Positions 1,974-47,283 of a DNA stretch of 51,807 nt are shown in pieces (within the stretch, counting starts at the first letter, position 1; each line of letters starts with the position of its first letter). Source of the DNA: Clostridium sp. (lineage in GTDB: Bacteria > Bacillota > Clostridia > Clostridiales > Clostridiaceae); contig NZ_JAJFUC010000052.1 in assembly GCF_021372645.1 (NCBI RefSeq), positions 1 to 51,807 on the forward strand, written 5' to 3'. A program made the translations under genes and the position numbers. The notes beneath the pieces were generated by a model, which was given only the letters and a program-made list of their open reading frames with translations, did no database searches and was not told the DNA's origin.

Positions 1974-3005
1974 ATGACATTGCATCATTATAAAAAAAAG
2001 AGATATGAAGAAGGTTTTGACGACCTTTATACTAATTCAATATTCAAGACTCAGCTTCCGAAAAATGAATTACCTGAAAAAGTTTCAAATCCTCAAGTTA
2101 TTCGACAATTGGTGTGTGACGAGCTCTTTATGGATGGAAATGCACGTCAAAACCTAGCAACATTTTGTACTACATACATTGAAGACGAAGTACGTGATCT
2201 CATGGATTTGGCAATAGATAAAAATATGATAGACAAGGATGAGTACCCGCAAACTGCTGAAATTGAGCAACGATGTGTGAATATATTGGCGAATCTTTGG
2301 CATTCACCTGAGAAAAAAGACACAATTGGATGTTCAACAACTGGATCTAGCGAGGCAGCAATGCTTGGAGGCTTAGCACTTAAATGGCAGTGGCGTAAGC
2401 GTCGTGAAGCTCAAGGAAAATCTACAAATAATCCTAACTTTGTATGTGGACCTGTACAGATATGCTGGCATAAATTTGCACGTTACTTTGATGTTGAAAT
2501 TAGAGAAATTCCGCTAATGTGTGATGAGTTAGGTATGAATCCAGATCAACTAAAAGATTATTGCGATGAGAACACAATTGGAGTAGTGGCAACTTTGGGT
2601 AGCACATTTACTGGTATATATGAACCTGTGCAGGATATAGCTAAAGCTCTAGATGTGATTCAAAATGAAACTGGATTCGATATACCGATTCACGTAGATG
2701 GAGCTAGTGGAGCATTCATTGCTCCATTTATACAGAAAAACCTCAAGTGGGATTTTTGTATTCCCAGGGTTAAATCTATTAATGCATCAGGTCATAAATT
2801 TGGTATGGCTCCACTTGGTGTTGGTTGGATCATCTGGAGGACCGTGGCAGACTTGCCTAAGGAATTAATATTTAATGTTGATTATTTAGGAGGACAAATG
2901 CCAACCTTTGCCCTAAATTTTTCACGGCCAGCTGGTCAAGTTATTGCTCAGTATTACAATTTTTTGAGATTGGGTCATGAGGGATACACAGCAATTCAGA
3001 ATGAA
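1974..3005 (+). pseudogene. gadB: Glutamate decarboxylase, 5' part (split by group II intron)
   Basis: The ORF starts at ATG 1974 behind AGAGAGGTGGG and encodes the first 344 or so residues of a PLP-dependent glutamate decarboxylase, which converts glutamate plus H+ to GABA plus CO2. The PLP lysine is K275 in [28 protein letters not shown] and HVDGASGAF are the usual cofactor-site segments. The coding sequence matches the family up to AIQN (about 3002) and then runs into foreign sequence and a stop at 3030-3032. The continuation is found at 5684-6037. Joining 1974-3005 to 5684-6037 gives about 461 residues, the normal GAD length. The intron lies in the opposite orientation, so it cannot splice out of this mRNA. 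The exact junction (3005, 3008 or 3011 all keep frame) is uncertain. Confidence 0.85.
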
Positions 3006-3055
3006 TTAGTGATAGGTAACTCTTTGAAGTAATCTCCGAGTTTTCCCCCACTCCA

Positions 3056-3087
3056 TACGGAACGTGAGACTTTCACCTCATTCCGCA
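3056..3087 (-). other. Group II intron domain V
   Basis: On the minus strand TGCGGAA-TGAGGT-GAAA-GTCTCA-CG-TTCCGTA folds into the domain V hairpin: a 7-bp lower stem, a two-base CG bulge, an upper stem with G-U pairs and a GAAA tetraloop. By my alignment the catalytic triad position reads UGC rather than the common AGC. It sits 25 bases after the maturase stop, as expected. Confidence 0.75.
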
Positions 3088-3111
3088 GTCCAACAAATTT
3101 ATATTACTTAA

Positions 3112-4947
3112 CTATATAGCTAAATTTTCTACTTGCTTTCTTAAAGAATTAACCTTTTTGAAACCTTTATCGTCTAAATTTAAGATTTTCATGTACTTTT
3201 CAATGGTTTCTTGTTTGGCACTATGAATTAGTTTATGTGCTTCTTCACATATCCAAACTAGGTTTTTATAGTCATCAGTTCCACCTAAAACTTTTGGTTT
3301 TTTATGGTGACATTCCATATTTCCTATTTCTAATTGACTTCCAGTAACATAGCATTTGCCTTGTTGCCCTGCTATCAACGAGATTCTATTATCATTATAT
3401 TCAATAGATTGTGAGTCATTGTTACTCCTTAACAAATATTCCATTAGGTGTTTGAATCCTCCTAATTTCTTGTGTATGAGTTGTCTACCTTCTACTGTAT
3501 AATTATTGATGTTTTGACTAAAGCACATTGGTGGTTTAGTTTTACATCCGTAAATAGGAAAAAGAGTTACATTCTGAATGGTTCTGATTTTACCATTGTA
3601 GTCACCGTATAATTTATTATAAGTTTCAGATTTTTTAGGTTTATCTGTAACATAATTCTTTAATCTTATATCCAAAGTTTTTGTTACTAAGAAATTGATT
3701 TCGCCAAAGTCCAAACTTACATTGGTGGCACTATTATAATAATTGTGACTACCCAGTATAATAGAGTTGAGTTTTGATACCTCTTTACTATTACAGTTCT
3801 TTTGTATTATTCTTATTTGGTCTTTTATTTTGTTAATTGTGTTTTTCTTGGCTTTATCACTCATATTACTTTGACAGACGTATTTATTTGATTTGGGTTT
3901 TACTTTGAAGGCAAAACCTAGAAATTCAGTTCTATTCTTCCTTACATTGGTTATTTTAGATTTTTCAGGACTTATATCTAAATCCAATCTTTCTTTTAAC
4001 CATTGTTTAGTTGCTTTATATATCCTTTGGGCGGTGTCGTAATCTCTACAGAAAATCTTGAAGTCATCTGCGTATCGTACTAGCATTATTTCTTTCAGTT
4101 CAGATTTTCTTATGGCTCTATATTTATTTGAATGGTCAATGTATGTTTTTCTATCAAATAGATAATTGTGTTTAGTTTCAAATGTTTCCCATTGTGAGCT
4201 AATCCACCAATCCAATTCGTTGAGTACAACATTAGATAACAAAGGACTTATTATACCACCTTGTGGCGTTCCTTTTGTTGGTATTCCTTCTCCTTGTATT
4301 TCTGATTTAAGTATTTTGCCAATTATGCTTATTAAGTTTTTATCTTGAATACCCATACTCCAGAGTTGTTTCTTTAACTTTGCATGATTTACATTGTCAA
4401 AGAACCCTTTAATATCAATATCCACTACATAATGCAAGCTATTTCTATTCATTAAGAATATACTTCTTGCTATAGCATGGTCTGTTGACCTGTTAGGTCT
4501 GAAACCATAATTATGATTATGGAATTTGGCTTCACATATTGGCTCTAATACTTGTTTTATACATTGCTGTATAATCCTATCATCCATACATGGTATCCCT
4601 AAAGGTCTAGTTTTACCATTTGATTTGGGTATTTCAACTCTACGAACACTTTTAGGATGATAATTAGCTAATTTATTTTGAAAGTAGCTAACGAATTTAT
4701 CTTTATCCCATTCTTTATAGTGAGTAATATCAAGATTATCTGTTCCCACAGTTGTTGAACCCTTATTCTTCTTGATATTTCTATAAGCTAGAAGTATATT
4801 CTCCTCCTTTGATATATATTGCATTAAGTTTCTGAATTTATAATCATTACATGACTGTTCATGTAACTTATCAAAAGTATTCTGCATTGAGTAATATTCG
4901 TTATTTCTTAGCATTTGTCGTTTCTTTAAGTCTAAGCTTTCCTTCAA
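3112..4947 (-). CDS. ltrA: Group II intron reverse transcriptase/maturase with HNH endonuclease
   Basis: This protein has 611 residues. The RT domain shows KSNGKTRPLGIPCMDDRIIQ, NYGFRPNRSTDHAI, GTPQGGIISPLLSN and the catalytic YADD at residues 292-295. The maturase (X) region follows. The C-terminus, about residues 530-590, is an HNH endonuclease (GKCYVTGSQL, ECHHKKPKVLGGTDDYKNL, HKLIH). It promotes splicing of its own intron RNA and target-primed reverse transcription into DNA. The TTG start at 4947 is chosen because GGGGG lies 10 bases upstream. An ATG twelve codons downstream is an alternative. All domains appear intact. Confidence 0.9.
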   Translation of the reverse strand: MKESLDLKKRQMLRNNEYYSMQNTFDKLHEQSCNDYKFRNLMQYISKEENILLAYRNIKKNKGSTTVGTDNLDITHYKEWDKDKFVSYFQNKLANYHPKSVRRVEIPKSNGKTRPLGIPCMDDRIIQQCIKQVLEPICEAKFHNHNYGFRPNRSTDHAIARSIFLMNRNSLHYVVDIDIKGFFDNVNHAKLKKQLWSMGIQDKNLISIIGKILKSEIQGEGIPTKGTPQGGIISPLLSNVVLNELDWWISSQWETFETKHNYLFDRKTYIDHSNKYRAIRKSELKEIMLVRYADDFKIFCRDYDTAQRIYKATKQWLKERLDLDISPEKSKITNVRKNRTEFLGFAFKVKPKSNKYVCQSNMSDKAKKNTINKIKDQIRIIQKNCNSKEVSKLNSIILGSHNYYNSATNVSLDFGEINFLVTKTLDIRLKNYVTDKPKKSETYNKLYGDYNGKIRTIQNVTLFPIYGCKTKPPMCFSQNINNYTVEGRQLIHKKLGGFKHLMEYLLRSNNDSQSIEYNDNRISLIAGQQGKCYVTGSQLEIGNMECHHKKPKVLGGTDDYKNLVWICEEAHKLIHSAKQETIEKYMKILNLDDKGFKKVNSLRKQVENLAI

Positions 4948-5683
4948 GTCTGTTAATCCCCCTTTATGGAGTTTGGCATCTCTTAGTCATACTCGAACCT
5001 TGAATATTATTTAGTATTTAATATTTCATATAAATTTGCCTTGTGGCTATTGCTCCATTTCCATTACAGAAACTTCTATGCTCATGCCACTACACTCCTT
5101 TGGATTAAGATAAGTTATATGTTATACATTTTCCTTACCAATGCTTCACCGATAGTAAAGTCTCCACATTCCAAACTTTCCTTGTTCCATTATTATTATC
5201 TTTACATATATCCGTAGGTCGTTAGTTTGAGCCTATAAGCTTGATAGTGCCTGTAACACTATATGGATTTTCATAGGCATAAAGTTTACTAATCCACACT
5301 TATTACACTTTATGTGTTATGTGCATTTCTACACATTGTATTTTTAGACCCGTACATTCCTAACTTTGTCAGTCTTTTATAAGACATACTAACCATAGAT
5401 ATTTTATAGACCTTAGCCCTATATCACTCGGTTACCTCTAACTCGGTTTTCCTCAACATGATTACTCATTTGTTAGGGTGATTTCTAAGGCGTTTTAACG
5501 AGCTTCTTACCTAAAACTATTTACTTAATTAAAGGCAAGTCGTATCCTTTGGGAAGGCATTTCAAGGCGTTACCCTATCATTCTACCTATCATAATAATA
5601 GTTCTAATTTCTGAATTTAATCAGCTAATTAGGCTAGTTTTGTAATAAACCTTCGCTTATCTTTGTCTAGCAACAAGTCACAC

Positions 5684-30107: not shown

Positions 30108-30203
30108 TGTAAATAATACGTATACTAAATAAAAACTAGGTTTATGCGTATAAACTACTGAAGTTACAACTGTGTATCTTAATTTAGAATGGAGGAAAAT
30201 AAT

Positions 30204-31133
30204 ATGAAAACAATCGAAACTAAATTTGGAACTTTAAATGATGCCATTGTTGCTGGTTATTATTCCACTGGAGAAGCTGAAGAATACAGATTAGAAGAAA
30301 AAAGTGAGCTTAATATTTGGGGGTACAAGCTAATACCTTCATATGAATTTCCCGATGTAAGAAGAAAAGAATTTCCATCAGTGAAAGTTTATAAAAGTGG
30401 AAATATAAGAAGCATTTTATTAAATGACTCAACTTCTATTACAACTAAAATAGGAGTATTTGAAGTTGAAAAAATCACATTTTATGAAGATGGTCCAATT
30501 AATAGACTATTTTTGTTAGATGGTAAATTATCTGGATATTGGTCAGAGGAAGATGAATATGATTTAGCAAAACCATATAAATTTGATTTTGAATTTGCAT
30601 CTTTTGAAGCTAAGGCTATATCCCTTCATTTTTATAAAACTGAGGAGCTAAAGAGTATTACTTTGTGGCCTAAGGAAAGAGTTAATCTAAACTTAGAAGA
30701 TTATAATATTATAGGTAGAATAGGATTTTCCTTATATGAAAGTGGTAAACTCAAATCTTGTGAGCCTTTTAGACCAATTACTATAAATACGCTTATTGGA
30801 GATATAGAAGCCTATGATATTAATGCTATAGGAATTCATGGAGATGAAAATTCTCTTAATTTTTATGAAGATGGTAGGATCAAGTCACTTATTACTTCTA
30901 GAAATACAATAACAATTCATACTTTAGGTGGAGATAAAATTATTCATTCACCTAGAAAAGTCAGAATATATTCTAATAGCGAAGTGATGGATACAATAAC
31001 TTTATCTATAGAATTTATAGATGATAAAGTTATTATAGATGGTAATTATGAATATAATATTCAAGGAAATAAGTTTGAAATAAAGAACTTTGGAGAAAAG
31101 CAATTTACACTTAGTGGTGATTTGAATAAATGA
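30204..31133 (+). CDS. Hypothetical protein with repeated FYExGxlKS strands
   Basis: This protein has 309 residues from ATG 30204, eight bases after GGAGG; the frame opens at 30189, but that would bury the ribosome site. The sequence has at least five related beta motifs: VKVYKSGNIRSILL, ITFYEDGPINRLFL, LHFYKTEELKSITL, FSLYESGKLKSCEP and LNFYEDGRIKSLIT. They recall MORN/YwqK-like strands at about 45-residue spacing. There is no signal peptide and no Cys motif. It lies between anfO and the nif promoter in the same direction. Function unknown. Confidence 0.65.
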   Translation: MKTIETKFGTLNDAIVAGYYSTGEAEEYRLEEKSELNIWGYKLIPSYEFPDVRRKEFPSVKVYKSGNIRSILLNDSTSITTKIGVFEVEKITFYEDGPINRLFLLDGKLSGYWSEEDEYDLAKPYKFDFEFASFEAKAISLHFYKTEELKSITLWPKERVNLNLEDYNIIGRIGFSLYESGKLKSCEPFRPITINTLIGDIEAYDINAIGIHGDENSLNFYEDGRIKSLITSRNTITIHTLGGDKIIHSPRKVRIYSNSEVMDTITLSIEFIDDKVIIDGNYEYNIQGNKFEIKNFGEKQFTLSGDLNK

Positions 31134-31228
31134 TTTTTTTATTGATTTAGCTAAATGGGATATTTTTTTACTAAATTAATAAAAGTGTATCGTTATCATT
31201 GGAAATATCATAGAAATATGAAAAAGAG

Positions 31229-31257
31229 TTTGCAAAATCAATTTTCTATGATATGAT
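31229..31257 (+). promoter_or_regulatory. Degenerate upstream copy of the nif promoter
   Basis: TTTGCA, 17 bases, TATGAT, in a sequence (GCAAAATCAATTTTCTATGA) nearly identical to the promoter about 100 bases further on. It looks like a relic of the tandem duplication of the nif control region. Confidence 0.45.
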
Positions 31258-31329
31258 AACTTTAATAACTAAAACAAATCAACAAAAAATAGCAATATAT
31301 TACAAGTATTATAAAATTTGAAAAAATAG

Positions 31330-31358
31330 TTTACAAAATCAAAATTTTATGATATAAT
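31330..31358 (+). promoter_or_regulatory. nifH promoter
   Basis: TTTACA (31330-31335), a 17-base spacer and TATAAT (31353-31358) form a near-consensus sigma-A promoter. Transcription would start near 31365 and enter leader unit 1 at about 31390. No sigma-54 (GG-N10-GC) site is visible. Confidence 0.75.
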
Positions 31359-31388
31359 AATTAAAATGACTAAATAAAATTTAAATAC

Positions 31389-31519
31389 CTATAATTAAGA
31401 CAACGAAGTCTAAGTGTTTAACTCAAAGAAGAAGTTAAATCTTAGATTTTTTTTATTAAATGAAGGATAAAGGAGTCTAATTTATTATTACTTTAGAAAT
31501 TATATAAAATAGATTTCTT
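31389..31519 (+). promoter_or_regulatory. nifH leader unit 1: two hexaloop hairpins, each overlapping a terminator
   Basis: Module a: GAC-AACGAA-GTC (loop 31402-31407, A1/G4) shares its 3' arm with the terminator TCTAAG...CTTAGA (31409-31446), which has an inner TTTAACT/AGTTAAA stem and eight T. Module b: GGAT-AAAGGA-GTCT (loop 31469-31474, A1/G4) shares GTCTA with a weaker terminator (to about 31517) that has a poor T-run. Binding of an ANTAR-domain protein to paired hexaloops would block the terminators. The organisation is seen directly; the regulator is inferred. Confidence 0.75.
31409..31454 (+). terminator. Terminator 1a in the nifH leader
   Basis: The stem is TCTAAG/CTTAGA plus TTTAACT/AGTTAAA, followed by eight T. 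It would stop nif transcription unless hairpin 1a forms. Confidence 0.8.
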
Positions 31520-31521
31520 GA

Positions 31522-31527
31522 TATAAT
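31522..31527 (+). promoter_or_regulatory. Possible second nif -10 element between leader units
   Basis: GATATAATAATT, then AATAACTAAATAAAATTTAAAT repeats the context of the main -10 region. The -35 region (ATTATA) is poor, so activity is doubtful. It marks the junction of the tandem duplication. Confidence 0.35.
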
Positions 31528-31661
31528 AATTTTAATAACTAAATAAAATTTAAATATATATATTGCAACAAATATATTCTTCATAAAAATTAATTTACTA
31601 TTAACTGTTTTCATGAAGGTTATTTTTTACAATATATGTACCTATAATTAAGGCAACGAAG

Positions 31662-31706
31662 TCTAAGTTTTTAATTCGAAGAAGAAGTTAAACTTAGATT
31701 TTTTTT
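31662..31706 (+). terminator. Terminator 2a in the nifH leader
   Basis: TCTAAGTTTTTAA pairs with TTAAACTTAGA, followed by eight T. It excludes hexaloop hairpin 2a. Confidence 0.8.
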
Positions 31707-31728
31707 ATTAATTAAATGAAGGACAAAG

Positions 31729-31779
31729 GAGTCTAATTTCATATAACTTTAAAAGTTATATGAAATAGATTCTTTTTTT
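31729..31779 (+). terminator. Terminator 2b in the nifH leader
   Basis: GAGTCTAATTTCATATAACT pairs with AGTTATATGAAATAGATTC (one unpaired base, one wobble), followed by seven T. It is the strongest terminator of the leader. Confidence 0.85.
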
Positions 31780-31856
31780 AAAACTAAATTTTAGTTATAT
31801 TAATACATTTAAGTTATAATGTCCCAAATGGGCTTATATAAAATTTATTTAATTAA

Positions 31857-32693
<837 letters not shown>

Positions 32694-44266: not shown

Positions 44267-44306
44267 ATTAGTAATAGAATAAATATTTACAATAAAGGCA
44301 ATGAAG

Positions 44307-44353
44307 TCTAAGAATAAACTCATAAATTAGTTAATTCTTAGATTATTTTTTTT
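44307..44353 (+). terminator. Terminator a in the nifV leader
   Basis: TCTAAGAAT (44307-44315) and ATTCTTAGA (44334-44342) are perfect arms, followed by TTATTTTTTTT. Confidence 0.8.
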
Positions 44354-44363
44354 ATCGGCAAAG

Positions 44364-44414
44364 GAGCCTATTTAATATAATATTAATAGTATTATATTAA
44401 ATAAGGCTCTTTTT
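44364..44414 (+). terminator. Terminator b in the nifV leader
   Basis: GAGCCTATTTAATATAATA pairs with TATTATATTAAATAAGGCTC (one extra base), followed by five T. It ends 66 bases before nifV-omega. Confidence 0.85.
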
Positions 44415-44480
44415 ATATTTAAAAGTACTTCAATAGAATTGAAAGTTATATTAATAATATATCTGAAGAGGAGTGGAATT

Positions 44481-45395
44481 ATGGGTGAAAGAAAAATTGA
44501 AATCATAGATAAGACAATAGTTGTTTTAAAAGAAATATATGGTGATAAATTAAAGGCAAAGATTTCTAAAATAAAAGAGTTAATAAAATTACTATATATA
44601 ATAGGAAGCGATTATATAGAAATTACTCAAGAACTTTATGAAGAATTATCACCATTACCACAAAATGTAAAATTTATAATAGCTAATAATAATAGCATTG
44701 AAACTAAAAATGTTAATAAATTTTATAATAGCCTAAATAGTAAATCTAATGTATGTAACTTAAAAAATGTTAGAGTAATTGGATTAGATGATATTATTTT
44801 TTACGACTATGAAAAAATATTTTCTGAAATTATAAATATTTTAGGCGAAAACATACAAATATGCATTAAGAACAAGTATGGAGCATCTACAGCAATGAGT
44901 TTAGAGTGGATCAAACTTGGTGGAAAAAAGGTGATCACAACTTTTGCAGGAATTGGGGGGTATGCTCCCCTTGAAGAAATATTAGGTTCTATTTCTCTTT
45001 TAGAGAAAATTAAACTTCAAGGAAATCATAAACTTTTCCCAGAAGTACTTAATATCTTTGAAGATATTACAGAAAGTAAACTTCAGACCAATATGCCTTT
45101 TATAGGTAAGGATATTTTTAATGTAGAATCGGGAATTCATGTAAATGGAATTGCTAAAAATCCATGTACCTATGAACCGTATGATCCAAGTACAATAGGA
45201 AGAAAAAGAAATATTGTTATTGGTAAGCATTCAGGCGTCAATGCACTAGAGATAAAATTGAAAGAATTGAATATAACATATAATTCAAATAATTTGAAAT
45301 GTATGTTAGAACATGTAAGAAATCTTAGTACACAAAAACGAAGAGGATTAAATAATGATGAAATTCAAGAGATTTATAGAAAATGTAGTATATAA
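44481..45395 (+). CDS. nifV-omega: Homocitrate synthase, omega subunit
   Basis: This protein has 304 residues from ATG 44481 (GAGGAGTGG upstream; the frame opens at 44439). It corresponds to the C-terminal half of homocitrate/isopropylmalate synthases: GASTAMSLEWIKLGGKKVIT with FAGIGGYAPLEEIL, PFIGKDIFNVESGIHVNGIA, YEPYDPSTIGRKR and IGKHSGVNALE. Split NifV (omega plus alpha) is known in C. pasteurianum. The first 120 residues are variable. Together with alpha it makes homocitrate, the organic ligand of the FeMo cofactor. Confidence 0.93.
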   Translation: MGERKIEIIDKTIVVLKEIYGDKLKAKISKIKELIKLLYIIGSDYIEITQELYEELSPLPQNVKFIIANNNSIETKNVNKFYNSLNSKSNVCNLKNVRVIGLDDIIFYDYEKIFSEIINILGENIQICIKNKYGASTAMSLEWIKLGGKKVITTFAGIGGYAPLEEILGSISLLEKIKLQGNHKLFPEVLNIFEDITESKLQTNMPFIGKDIFNVESGIHVNGIAKNPCTYEPYDPSTIGRKRNIVIGKHSGVNALEIKLKELNITYNSNNLKCMLEHVRNLSTQKRRGLNNDEIQEIYRKCSI

Positions 45396-45510
45396 ATACC
45401 TGAGATATGAGTATATACTCCGAAATGAAGGTCATGCATTTGTTCCAGTTAGTTGTACAAATATCTTAAATTATAAGTAAGAAAGTCTATATTTGGGGAG
45501 GAAGTAAACA

Positions 45511-46278
45511 ATGAATTTACAAGAACGATTTAATGATGAAATATATATTGTAGATACAACATTACGAGATGGAGAACAAAGTGCTGGGAGAGCTTTTTCT
45601 ATAGATGAAAAGTTAGAGATTGCAAAATATATGGATGAAAATAATATATATCAAATAGAAGCGGGAATACCCGTAATGGGTGATTTAGAAAAGGAATGTA
45701 TCAAAAGAATCTTAGCTAGTAGAAAGAATTCTTTGATTTCTACCTGGAATAGAATGAATAAAAAAGATATACTTCATTCAATAGATTGTAAGCCAGATAT
45801 AATCCATATAAGTGTTCCTACTTCTGATATACAGATATATTCAAATTTGGGAAAAGATAAACTATGGGTTGAAGAAAATCTTAGAGAATGCGTATATCTT
45901 GCAAAAGATAAAGGTTATGAAGTAACCATTGGCTTTGAAGATGCTTCAAGAGCAGATATAAATTATCTTATTGATTTGTGTAAAATAGTTGGAAGTATGG
46001 ATGTTAAAAGAGTTAGATATGCAGATACAGTAGGAATATTAATGCCATCTATAATTAAAGAAGCAATTAAAACCATAATAAATAATACAGGCATAGAAAT
46101 CGAAATACATGCTCACAATGATTTTGGTATGGCAATTCCCATTTCACTTGAAGCTGTAAAAAGTGGAGCTAAATATGTGGACTGCACATTAGATGGAATT
46201 GGAGAGAGAGCAGGAAATTGCAATTTACAAGAATTTATTAAAATTTCAGATATGTTTTTAGAAAAAATAAACAATTAA
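45511..46278 (+). CDS. nifV-alpha: Homocitrate synthase, alpha subunit
   Basis: This protein has 255 residues behind GGGGAGG. It is the N-terminal catalytic barrel of the synthase: VDTTLRDGEQSAGRAFSIDE (metal Asp and Arg), EAGIPVMGD, FEDASRAD, RYADTVGIL and the metal-binding HAHNDFGMA. It condenses acetyl-CoA with 2-oxoglutarate. It is separated from omega by 115 bases, with its own ribosome site. A terminator at 46283 ends the unit. Confidence 0.95.
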   Translation: MNLQERFNDEIYIVDTTLRDGEQSAGRAFSIDEKLEIAKYMDENNIYQIEAGIPVMGDLEKECIKRILASRKNSLISTWNRMNKKDILHSIDCKPDIIHISVPTSDIQIYSNLGKDKLWVEENLRECVYLAKDKGYEVTIGFEDASRADINYLIDLCKIVGSMDVKRVRYADTVGILMPSIIKEAIKTIINNTGIEIEIHAHNDFGMAIPISLEAVKSGAKYVDCTLDGIGERAGNCNLQEFIKISDMFLEKINN

Positions 46279-46331: not shown

Positions 46332-46438
46332 TTAAATTATGATATAATTGATTAGATAAGTTATCTTTAGAAAGGTATATTTTTTAGATTTCTAAGATAT
46401 ATGAAAGAAAATAAGTATTAATTAGGTAGGTGAGCAAA

Positions 46439-46858
46439 ATGAAATTGGAAGATGAAAAGAAGTTAATTATGGATAAACTAAAAAGTGAAGAAGTGGTGAA
46501 TTTTCTTAATAAATATGATATTTCAAGTATGCTCACTTTTGGAAGTTTTAATAATGAAGATTTTACACAAGATTCAGATATAGATATTGCTATAATAGGG
46601 AAACATAAAATAGACTTAGAGGAAATATTAGAAATTGAATTATTTTTAGCAAAGTTACTTAATAAGGAAATTGATGTTATAGATTTAAAAAGCGAAAGTT
46701 TATATATTTTTTTAAAAATAAATGTATTAAACGAAGGGGAAGTTATTTATTCTAATGATGATAATTATAATTTAGAAATATTCAAAGATGAAACAGACAG
46801 GATTTATAAGGAAAATGAGAATTTTTTCTGGTTTAGAAGGAAGGATGTGTTGTCATGA
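46439..46858 (+). CDS. mntA: MntA-type nucleotidyltransferase antitoxin
   Basis: This protein has 139 residues from ATG 46439 (AGGTAGGTGAG upstream; a GTG at 46430 is in frame). The minimal nucleotidyltransferase motif is complete: G35-S36, ten residues, then D47-x-D49 (GSFNNEDFTQDSDIDI), with a third acid in KEIDVIDL. In the MntA-HepT system the antitoxin transfers AMP onto a Tyr of HepT and silences it. It overlaps the toxin gene by four bases, antitoxin first. Confidence 0.88.
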   Translation: MKLEDEKKLIMDKLKSEEVVNFLNKYDISSMLTFGSFNNEDFTQDSDIDIAIIGKHKIDLEEILEIELFLAKLLNKEIDVIDLKSESLYIFLKINVLNEGEVIYSNDDNYNLEIFKDETDRIYKENENFFWFRRKDVLS

Positions 46859-47283
46859 ATCAAGAAAGACTTGTAAAAATTATAGAAGACCTTCAAGAGT
46901 GTACTTCCGATATAGAAGAATGCATTGAAATACTACAAGGTGAGTGTGATAATAAAATTATGGTAAAGCTTTCAAAATCCAGCTTGAGGCAACTGTTCGT
47001 AAGCTTTCATACAATACTTGAAGAATTTGCATCTATAATGCTTAAGGAAATTAAAAAGTATAAAATAGGTATGACATTAAATGATAGTTTAATTGTATTG
47101 AAATCGGCACATATATTAGATGAAGAACTTTTTAATTTTCTAGAAAAATCAAGGCTACTTAGAAACAGAATTTCACATAGATATAAGGAACCAGATCATG
47201 AAGAACTAATGAACCATATATTAAAGTATAAAAGTAATTTTAAGAGAATAATACGAATAGCAAAGAAACATTTGAAAGTATAA
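46855..47283 (+). CDS. hepT: HepT-type HEPN ribonuclease toxin
   Basis: This protein has 142 helical residues. The HEPN catalytic motif is R103-NRIS-H108, and Y110 completes RX4HXY, the Tyr that is AMPylated by MntA. HepT acts as an RNase when not modified. The four-base overlap with mntA and matching sizes make this a complete, apparently intact type VII toxin-antitoxin pair. It is followed 15 bases later by the dinG-like gene, perhaps co-transcribed. Confidence 0.88.
   Translation: MNQERLVKIIEDLQECTSDIEECIEILQGECDNKIMVKLSKSSLRQLFVSFHTILEEFASIMLKEIKKYKIGMTLNDSLIVLKSAHILDEELFNFLEKSRLLRNRISHRYKEPDHEELMNHILKYKSNFKRIIRIAKKHLKV

Follow-up and report, generated by a model that had tools for sequence, protein, structure and literature searches.

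Antitermination of nitrogen genes by ANTAR proteins is known from Geobacter, where GnfR acts on nif. The published ANTAR target is a pair of hairpins separated by a short linker, with the second hairpin overlapping a terminator (PMC3369931). According to the same source, EutV requires A at position 1 (A1) and G at position 4 (G4) in both loops, and fails when the linker measures 3 or 14 nt or when the first hairpin (P1) is deleted. The DNA analysed here, a 51,807-nt stretch of a Clostridium sp. contig (the window), carries a nifH leader in which each six-base loop, or hexaloop, is paired with a terminator of its own and such units are stacked. To our knowledge, the way in which nitrogenase is switched on in free-living clostridia is poorly understood. 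Judging from sequence comparisons, the leader is probably a stackable single-hexaloop variant of ANTAR antitermination, run by an ANTAR protein encoded next to glnA. Among the open-access papers searched, we found no earlier report of hexaloop leaders in clostridial nif genes; clostridial nif or gln sites may be among those in the supplementary tables of PMC3369931.

Four hairpins with 4-bp stems and six-base loops precede nifH within positions 31398-31734 of the window. As claimed in an earlier sequence-only reading of this DNA, the loops are AACGAA, AAAGGA, AACGAA and AAAGGA, all with A1 and G4, so that a G4 six-base loop on a stem of three or more pairs is found in 4/4 units. In hexaloops 1, 3 and 4, the 3' arm together with loop positions 4-6 doubles as the 5' arm of a longer hairpin, which a U-tract follows. 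For instance, the 5' arm of terminator T1a takes in the 3' arm of P1a and P1a loop positions 4-6. The features are given below together with their matches to R1, a covariance model built from 27 nifH modules and searched in 68 genomes (with stricter filters) and in the window.

31229..31257, plus strand: second, upstream promoter-like site (TTTGCA, 17 nt, TATGAT; consensus 9/12), which aligns with the region of the promoter at 31330
31330..31358, plus strand: probable nifH-leader promoter (TTTACA, 17 nt, TATAAT, with TG before the -10; consensus 11/12)
31398..31411, plus strand: hexaloop P1a, agacAACGAAgtct, loop AACGAA
31405..31454, plus strand: terminator T1a, U-tract at 31447-31454, fold -14.7 kcal/mol, R1 E 2.3e-11 (training member)
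31465..31478, plus strand: hexaloop P2a, ggatAAAGGAgtct, loop AAAGGA
31472..31517, plus strand: T2a, a decayed terminator with a weak hairpin, fold -7.9 kcal/mol
31556..31640, plus strand: insert separating both units, bounded by ATATATTG and CAATATAT (basis: sequence)
31651..31664, plus strand: hexaloop P1b, aggcAACGAAgtct, loop AACGAA
31658..31706, plus strand: terminator T1b, U-tract at 31699-31706, fold -14.3 kcal/mol, R1 E 1.8e-10 (training member)
31721..31734, plus strand: hexaloop P2b, ggacAAAGGAgtct, loop AAAGGA
31728..31779, plus strand: terminator T2b, U-tract at 31773-31779, fold -20.5 kcal/mol, R1 E 3.6e-10 (training member)
31872..32693, plus strand: nifH, the first gene 3' of the leader, assigned from NifH relatives

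The U-tract of T2a is interrupted (TTTCTTGATATAAT), and the terminator script called no terminator for P2a in the nifH leader. T2a still matches R1 (E 6.8e-7); it lay outside the training set, its sister copy inside. It probably represents a dead terminator, situated at the duplication junction. Since T2a has decayed, the nifH leader holds four hexaloops and three stops, one fewer than the four that the sequence-only reading had placed before nif. The arm sharing with a terminator that it ascribed to every unit holds for loops 1, 3 and 4, the terminators of which are intact; the hairpin after loop 2 is weak. Terminator overlap is found in 3/4 hexaloop units of the nifH leader, and in 2/2 units before the nifV-type genes described below. 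The layout of one loop per terminator, unlike the textbook target, and the duplication of the pair were correctly recognised, and the overlap of the arms supports the proposed leader type, in which hexaloops would compete against terminators.

Unit a (from 31386) aligns well with unit b (from 31639) through the terminators. The duplication is unlikely to be an assembly echo because the two copies differ. The insert at 31556-31640 was considered as a small multicopy mobile element and rejected, as the genome yielded only one further match, partial and 28 bases long. In L004 (G023), a longer insert with a similar start, recognised by eye, parts the two units; the window insert has ATATATTG ends.

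Genes 3' of nifH include P-II-like genes, nitrogenase component 1 genes and a nifN-nifB fusion, as indicated by Pfam/NCBIfam matches; the nifK match is above its cut-off, and those of the P-II-like genes fall short of the curated cut-offs. The gene upstream of the leader (30189-31133) has no Pfam match. In an Rfam scan of the window, no family reached its gathering score in the nifH leader. The sole matches in the window at the gathering threshold were group II intron parts (RF02004, RF00029) at 3005-5606 on the minus strand, located around a 611-aa reverse-strand ORF. A strict terminator scan, in which three G-C pairs were required, found none in 31100-31900 because the leader hairpins are A+T-rich.

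A layout resembling that of the promoter at 31330..31358 was also seen by eye in related leaders. As a class, promoter-like sites in the leader region are not above chance (12, compared with 8.6, sd 3.3, in shuffles). A third promoter-like copy lies inside the leader at about 31515-31550, and its -35 was seemingly lost at the duplication junction, as judged by eye and from the alignment. On the 5' side of the promoters, the box TATCGTTATCATT at 31188-31200 is present in exact form in 10 of 16 related nif leaders (window included), and with one letter off in 2 more of them. The box is a possible candidate site of a DNA-binding regulator.

Among the 68 genomes of the genus that were compared, 24 have a NifH match at E 1e-80, and 16 of the 24, including that of the window, have a closely related nifH (89% identity or more). 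Among the named loci listed in a separate comparison, C. chromiireducens and C. vincentii are close to the window, with NifH identities of 99% and 88%, respectively. Conservation of the hexaloops in related nif leaders, which the sequence-only reading had set as a test, was borne out, as hexaloop modules occur in 16/16 leaders of the closely related nifH genes. Two units are arranged in series in 14/16, and G061 has three units, one of which has a 3-bp stem (by eye). Four hexaloops, representing a duplicated pair, occur in the window only among these 16 leaders. The terminator of the second unit was not called by the script in G008; the second module of L015 has no called terminator. A spacing of 351 nt separates the two units of G023.

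R1 matches at E 0.05 or better were obtained in 17/68 genomes, corresponding to the 16 nifH genomes and G032. The single, weak G032 match (E 0.017) was dropped, as no module was seen there in a second scan. The window contains a further pair of modules, as follows.

44292..44351, plus strand: nifV-type leader module 1, aggcAATGAAgtct at 44296-44309 and a terminator, fold -13.5
44352..44415, plus strand: nifV-type leader module 2, cggcAAAGGAgcct at 44356-44369 and a terminator, fold -22.4
44439..46278, plus strand: split homocitrate synthase genes (nifV type), with HCS_D2 and HMGL-like domains

Module 1 is a non-training R1 match, with E 4.9e-7 in the window search and 2.9e-5 in the genome search. 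Module 2 has a 3-bp stem featuring an A-U to G-C change; its non-training R1 match has E 0.0031 for the window and is not listed at E 0.05 genome-wide. The nifV_homocitr profile matches the split genes as two halves, each below the curated cut-off. Adjoining the nifV-type genes, a nucleotidyltransferase and HepT-like pair (46430-47283; HepT match below cut-off) resembles a toxin-antitoxin module.

Ten non-training R1 matches (E 1.5e-5 to 0.04) are located before AnfO-like genes, one of which was profile-tested (PF09582 E 1.4e-56), the other nine being assigned by likeness. Loop position 1 is T in 10/10 anfO hexaloops (L178, L179, L181-L186, L192, L193), which possibly form an affinity class. 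Three matches (E 0.0125 to 0.02), one of them in the genome of the window, precede P-II genes, two of which were profile-tested. Of four cyclodeaminase-type matches (E 0.03 to 0.046), three lie ahead of an ornithine-cyclodeaminase-like gene (one of these genes profile-tested) and L195 lies ahead of another gene. For the P-II and cyclodeaminase-like matches, which have E 0.01-0.05 per genome, a few chance matches are to be expected over 68 genomes. L180 is an R1 match with no gene close behind. Each of the weak sites before anfO, P-II and cyclodeaminase-like genes shows a hexaloop and a terminator, with one clear unit per leader.

Modules before glnA were not reported by R1 at E 0.05 and were found by scanning. 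Two are present before glnA in the genome of the window. Twenty-one stretches were treated as glnA leaders, 18 of which (own included) are followed by a GlnA-like N-terminus; L212, L213 and L216 are not, and may not be glnA leaders. Among the GlnA-like stretches, 17/18 carry a module with a called terminator, and 10/18 carry two modules. L198 (G012) has a hexaloop and no called terminator, and the first terminator call in L200 is doubtful. The arrangement of one loop per terminator, regarded earlier as an elaboration special to the nifH leader of the window, is therefore common to nif and glnA leaders of the genus, and only the duplication is seen in the window alone.

In dinucleotide shuffles of 31389-31800, a G4 hexaloop-terminator module occurred in 18/1500, with a maximum of two at once versus the three observed. 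When any loop letters were allowed, at least one module occurred in 136/1500 shuffles and three or more in 7/1500. The whole window, scanned on both strands with stems of at least 4 pairs, contains 15 hexaloop-terminator overlaps, 5 with G4 and 4 with both G4 and A at position 2 (A2). These four correspond to the three in the nifH leader and to one at 44300, before the nifV-type genes.

An unconstrained scan, accepting any loop of 4-8 bases on a stem of at least 4 pairs, the 3' arm of which starts a terminator, was run on two sets of sequences. The nif set consists of 13 non-redundant leaders of the genus, that of the window included and the near-identical L008, L009 and L012 left out. Loops of 4, 5, 6, 7 and 8 bases numbered 4, 6, 28, 9 and 4 in this set, compared with shuffled means of 0.45, 0.85, 0.5, 1.2 and 0.7. 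Six-base loops are hence 56-fold over shuffles (28 vs 0.5), and 24/28 have G4; the other sizes are 6- to 9-fold over shuffles, few with G4. The second set consists of 20 stretches upstream of ANTAR genes, 17 of which lie before a GlnA-like N-terminus. Here the loops numbered 14, 7, 35, 10 and 28, against shuffled means of 2.6, 2.0, 2.0, 2.2 and 3.1. Eight-base loops are thus also raised in glnA-type leaders (28 vs 3.1), but G4 is found in 1/28 of these as opposed to 26/35 six-base loops. The six-base G4 class stands out, though other loop sizes are raised too.

The same scan was extended to other NifH-related loci. The best 80 of 591, minus L066, L067 and L069, gave 77 loci, in each of which up to 400 nt upstream were scanned. 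They contain 32 six-base loops vs 6.8 in shuffles, 21 of them with G4 vs 1.0 in shuffles, distributed over 18 loci; the reverse-strand control gave 3 G4 loops in 3 loci. Module examples come from Acetobacterium, Propionispira, Pectinatus, Youngiibacter and Ruminiclostridium, the last with a second unit on a 3-bp stem (by eye). In the nif leader of Acetobacterium tundrae (L090), AGACTTCTTT, 27-36 nt upstream of the hexaloop stem, is the exact complement of AAAGAAGTCT in the hexaloop, and the two sequences might form an extra alternative pairing. In Youngiibacter (L102), a terminator hairpin whose start lies 75 nt before nifH carries a well-formed hexaloop at its tip (TTTGAC AATGTA GTCAAA), seen by eye.

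Stem pairing was analysed in 39 distinct 14-mers drawn from 84 modules (nifH, nifV-type, anfO, P-II, cyclodeaminase-type, glnA-type and one other). In hexaloop stems, 151/156 cells pair, compared with a mean of 137.1 and a best of 145 in 5000 column shuffles (relatedness ignored). This count is partly circular because the motif patterns prescribed some of the inner stem: the glnA, anfO, P-II and cyclodeaminase-like rows were picked by a pattern requiring A2, G4 and part of the stem. The loop-size scan therefore serves as the unconstrained test. For the glnA-type rows, the outer two pairs were not constrained by the pattern; across their ten distinct 14-mers, five have G-C and five have U-A as the outer pair, and the next pair is G-C, A-U or G-U. 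Stems of nif hexaloops taken alone show one-sided changes only, and their pairing equals that of shuffles and is uninformative. At the base of the nif-only terminators, one pair has changes on both sides, and 96.8% of the cells are paired vs 95.4% in shuffles, a value reached by 5/500 shuffles. Stem covariation is supportive rather than decisive. Loop A2 and G4 are present in all 39 distinct 14-mers, partly by selection. Position 1, A in 4/4 loops of the window leader and considered a fixed letter in the sequence-only reading, varies in the larger set (A 26, G 7, T 6). The A1 that EutV needs is hence replaced by G or T in 13/39.

The presence of an ANTAR gene in the genome, another test named by the sequence-only reading, was confirmed. 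The genome of the window has a single such gene (PF03861 E 1.7e-20), located directly 3' of glnA and followed by a gene whose start resembles that of glutamate synthase (by eye). The receiver domain of the protein is weak, PF00072 being below its cut-off. The receiver was aligned to 6wsh and 1s8n, the chains of which are annotated as response regulator and putative antiterminator, and which we take to be EutV-like and Rv1626-like, respectively. G occupies the position of the phospho-acceptor aspartate, and LSN that of the acidic pocket acids. ANTAR proteins were sought by motif at 30 loci, 5 of which gave no protein; in 24/25 the phospho-acceptor site and the acids are missing (by eye), the exception being the EutV-like protein of G024. 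The glnA-type hexaloop GARCAAAGGCGTTC is present in 29/53 ANTAR-bearing and 0/15 ANTAR-lacking genomes (Fisher 6e-5, relatedness ignored), and a backward control pattern is found in 0/68. The association provides weak support: hexaloop and gene share an operon, the comparison takes no account of relatedness, and some of the genomes that lack ANTAR are incomplete (4/15 under 85%). G061 has modules and no ANTAR match in a genome that is 70% complete.

A partner hairpin with A1, G4 and three or more pairs was searched for 2-25 nt upstream of each loop, and was found in 3/81 distinct upstream stretches vs about 8 expected (50 shuffles each). As a positive control, a 19.9-kb stretch of G024 around the EutV-like gene was used. 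Partners were found for 3/3 forward-strand G4 modules, with linkers of 4, 10 and 4 nt (eut genes recognised by eye), and two reverse-strand G4 matches in the stretch had no partner. C. paridis nif has a canonical pair, in which 8 nt separate two adjacent loops followed by a single terminator, and L112 has a hexaloop pair with a 2-nt linker. Set against the single-hexaloop leaders of the genus, these pairs and those of G024 show that both designs exist. Because the dual hairpin was searched for and is missing, the modules are not canonical ANTAR targets by the published definition; by analogy, they look as if they work like ANTAR targets. A lone hexaloop may not suffice, because published targets need two close hairpins and EutV fails upon P1 deletion (PMC3369931).

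Two alternative readings would restore a two-loop target. A single ANTAR dimer might bridge P1 and P2 across the first terminator, which would make P1-T1-P2-T2 one canonical target. The pairing of units in 14/16 nifH leaders and in the nifV-type leader fits such a bridge, as do the adjacent loops of C. paridis, but P1 and P2 lie 37 to 351 nt apart in the leaders of nifH and 186 to 362 nt apart in those of glnA, whereas EutV tolerated neither 3- nor 14-nt linkers (PMC3369931). Moreover, anfO, P-II and cyclodeaminase-like leaders hold one clear hexaloop and G061 has three units (one by eye), and we consider the bridge unlikely. Alternatively, the apical loop of the terminator could in some modules be the second hexaloop, P1 and the tip forming the target. 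Folding gives a C-G-closed [AG]A.G.. hexaloop at the tip in 11/16 nifH module-1 terminators (10/14 distinct sequences) and in 4/4 cyclodeaminase-type leaders vs 1/38 control terminators; by sequence motif alone, the figures are 13/16 and 4/4. The Youngiibacter tip, noted by eye, is of the same kind. In contrast, the tip hexaloop is present by fold in 0/62 other modules examined, among them 0/16 nifH module 2, 0/2 nifV, 0/10 anfO, 0/3 P-II and 0/30 glnA-type, and since the leaders are related, its conservation may reflect descent. The nested pair is accordingly limited to nifH first modules and the cyclodeaminase type, and cannot be a general rule; that it explains the leaders appears improbable.

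The hexaloops could also be read by another RNA-binding regulator or by a ligand. Variation at loop position 1, the missing canonical dual hairpin and the lack of an Rfam family at gathering score in the leader would agree with a reader of this sort. Published ANTAR targets nonetheless share the loop size, G4, the C-G closing pair and the overlap with a terminator, and the glnA-ANTAR operon itself carries the module, which makes such a reader rather improbable. It is highly improbable that the leader is a plain stack of terminators insulating nif from upstream transcription, with hexaloops arising by accident. Several hairpins with U-tracts do lie 3' of the upstream gene, and the promoter sites are consensus matches that as a class are not above chance. 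However, pairing is kept in the hexaloops although their 5' arm and loop positions 1-3 are not part of the terminators, and G4 hexaloops are far above shuffles.

The reading that we favour, a stackable single-hexaloop leader controlled by the glnA-linked ANTAR protein, suggests the following mechanism, in which we infer protein-RNA binding, the direction of control and the signal from what is seen of leader structure, conservation and gene set. Each unit is a short hairpin in the loop of which G4 is strongly favoured and A2 almost invariant. The hexaloop hairpin and the terminator are mutually exclusive because the 3' half of the loop, with the 3' arm, is the terminator 5' arm. When fixed nitrogen is plentiful, the terminators would form and transcription would halt before nifH. 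When nitrogen is scarce, the ANTAR protein would hold each hexaloop and the polymerase would read on. One hexaloop would serve each terminator, and stacking of units would make the off state tighter. Leaders of anfO, P-II and cyclodeaminase-like genes carry a single unit, those of glnA one or two, and those of nifV-type genes two, as is usual for nifH; the nifH leader of the window has three intact units. As the receiver has no phospho-acceptor site, the signal is probably not phosphorylation and would come from a bound partner or ligand, for which glutamine synthetase and P-II are candidates. A comparable case is AmiR, a receiver not driven by phosphorylation, on which AmiC acts by partner control. 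Whether lone hexaloops are read by an ANTAR protein that is linked to glnA and blind to phosphorylation, with the stringency of each gene set in evolution by the stacking of units, we regard as an even call. If so, one RNA-level regulator would tie nif, anfO, P-II and glnA together in the genus, and the need of ANTAR proteins for two close hairpins would have a clear exception, which a leader of 60 nt would suffice to test. Leakiness would be set by a simple and evolvable dial, the number of units in the stack.

Pelobacter carbinolicus, with which the comparison may begin, belongs to another phylum. Its predicted nitrogenase regulon is similar in that ANTAR-type RNA elements precede three nitrogenase-linked operons, and differs in that the dual-hairpin model was used and the account describes no stacked single-loop units (PMC3369931). 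NasR-nasF and AmiR-amiE also represent ANTAR antitermination of nitrogen genes, but have dual-hairpin targets and different sensors (PMC3369931). Actinobacterial ANTAR RNAs share the A1/G4 hexaloops, with some variation tolerated. In contrast to the modules described here, they are by definition dual stem-loops, with 2-25 nt in the linker, and many of them are located near the ribosome-binding site or inside genes (PMC8164766). In the EutV-eut system of Enterococcus faecalis, as described in PMC3369931, the six-base G4 loops (usually A1), the short stems with conserved closing pairs, the sharing of the hairpin 3' arm with the terminator and the nitrogen-related genes are all alike. EutV-eut features two hairpins 5-12 nt apart per terminator and is activated by a phosphorylated receiver (PMC3369931), whereas the clostridial leaders have one hairpin for each terminator, in stacked units, and a receiver without a phospho-acceptor site.
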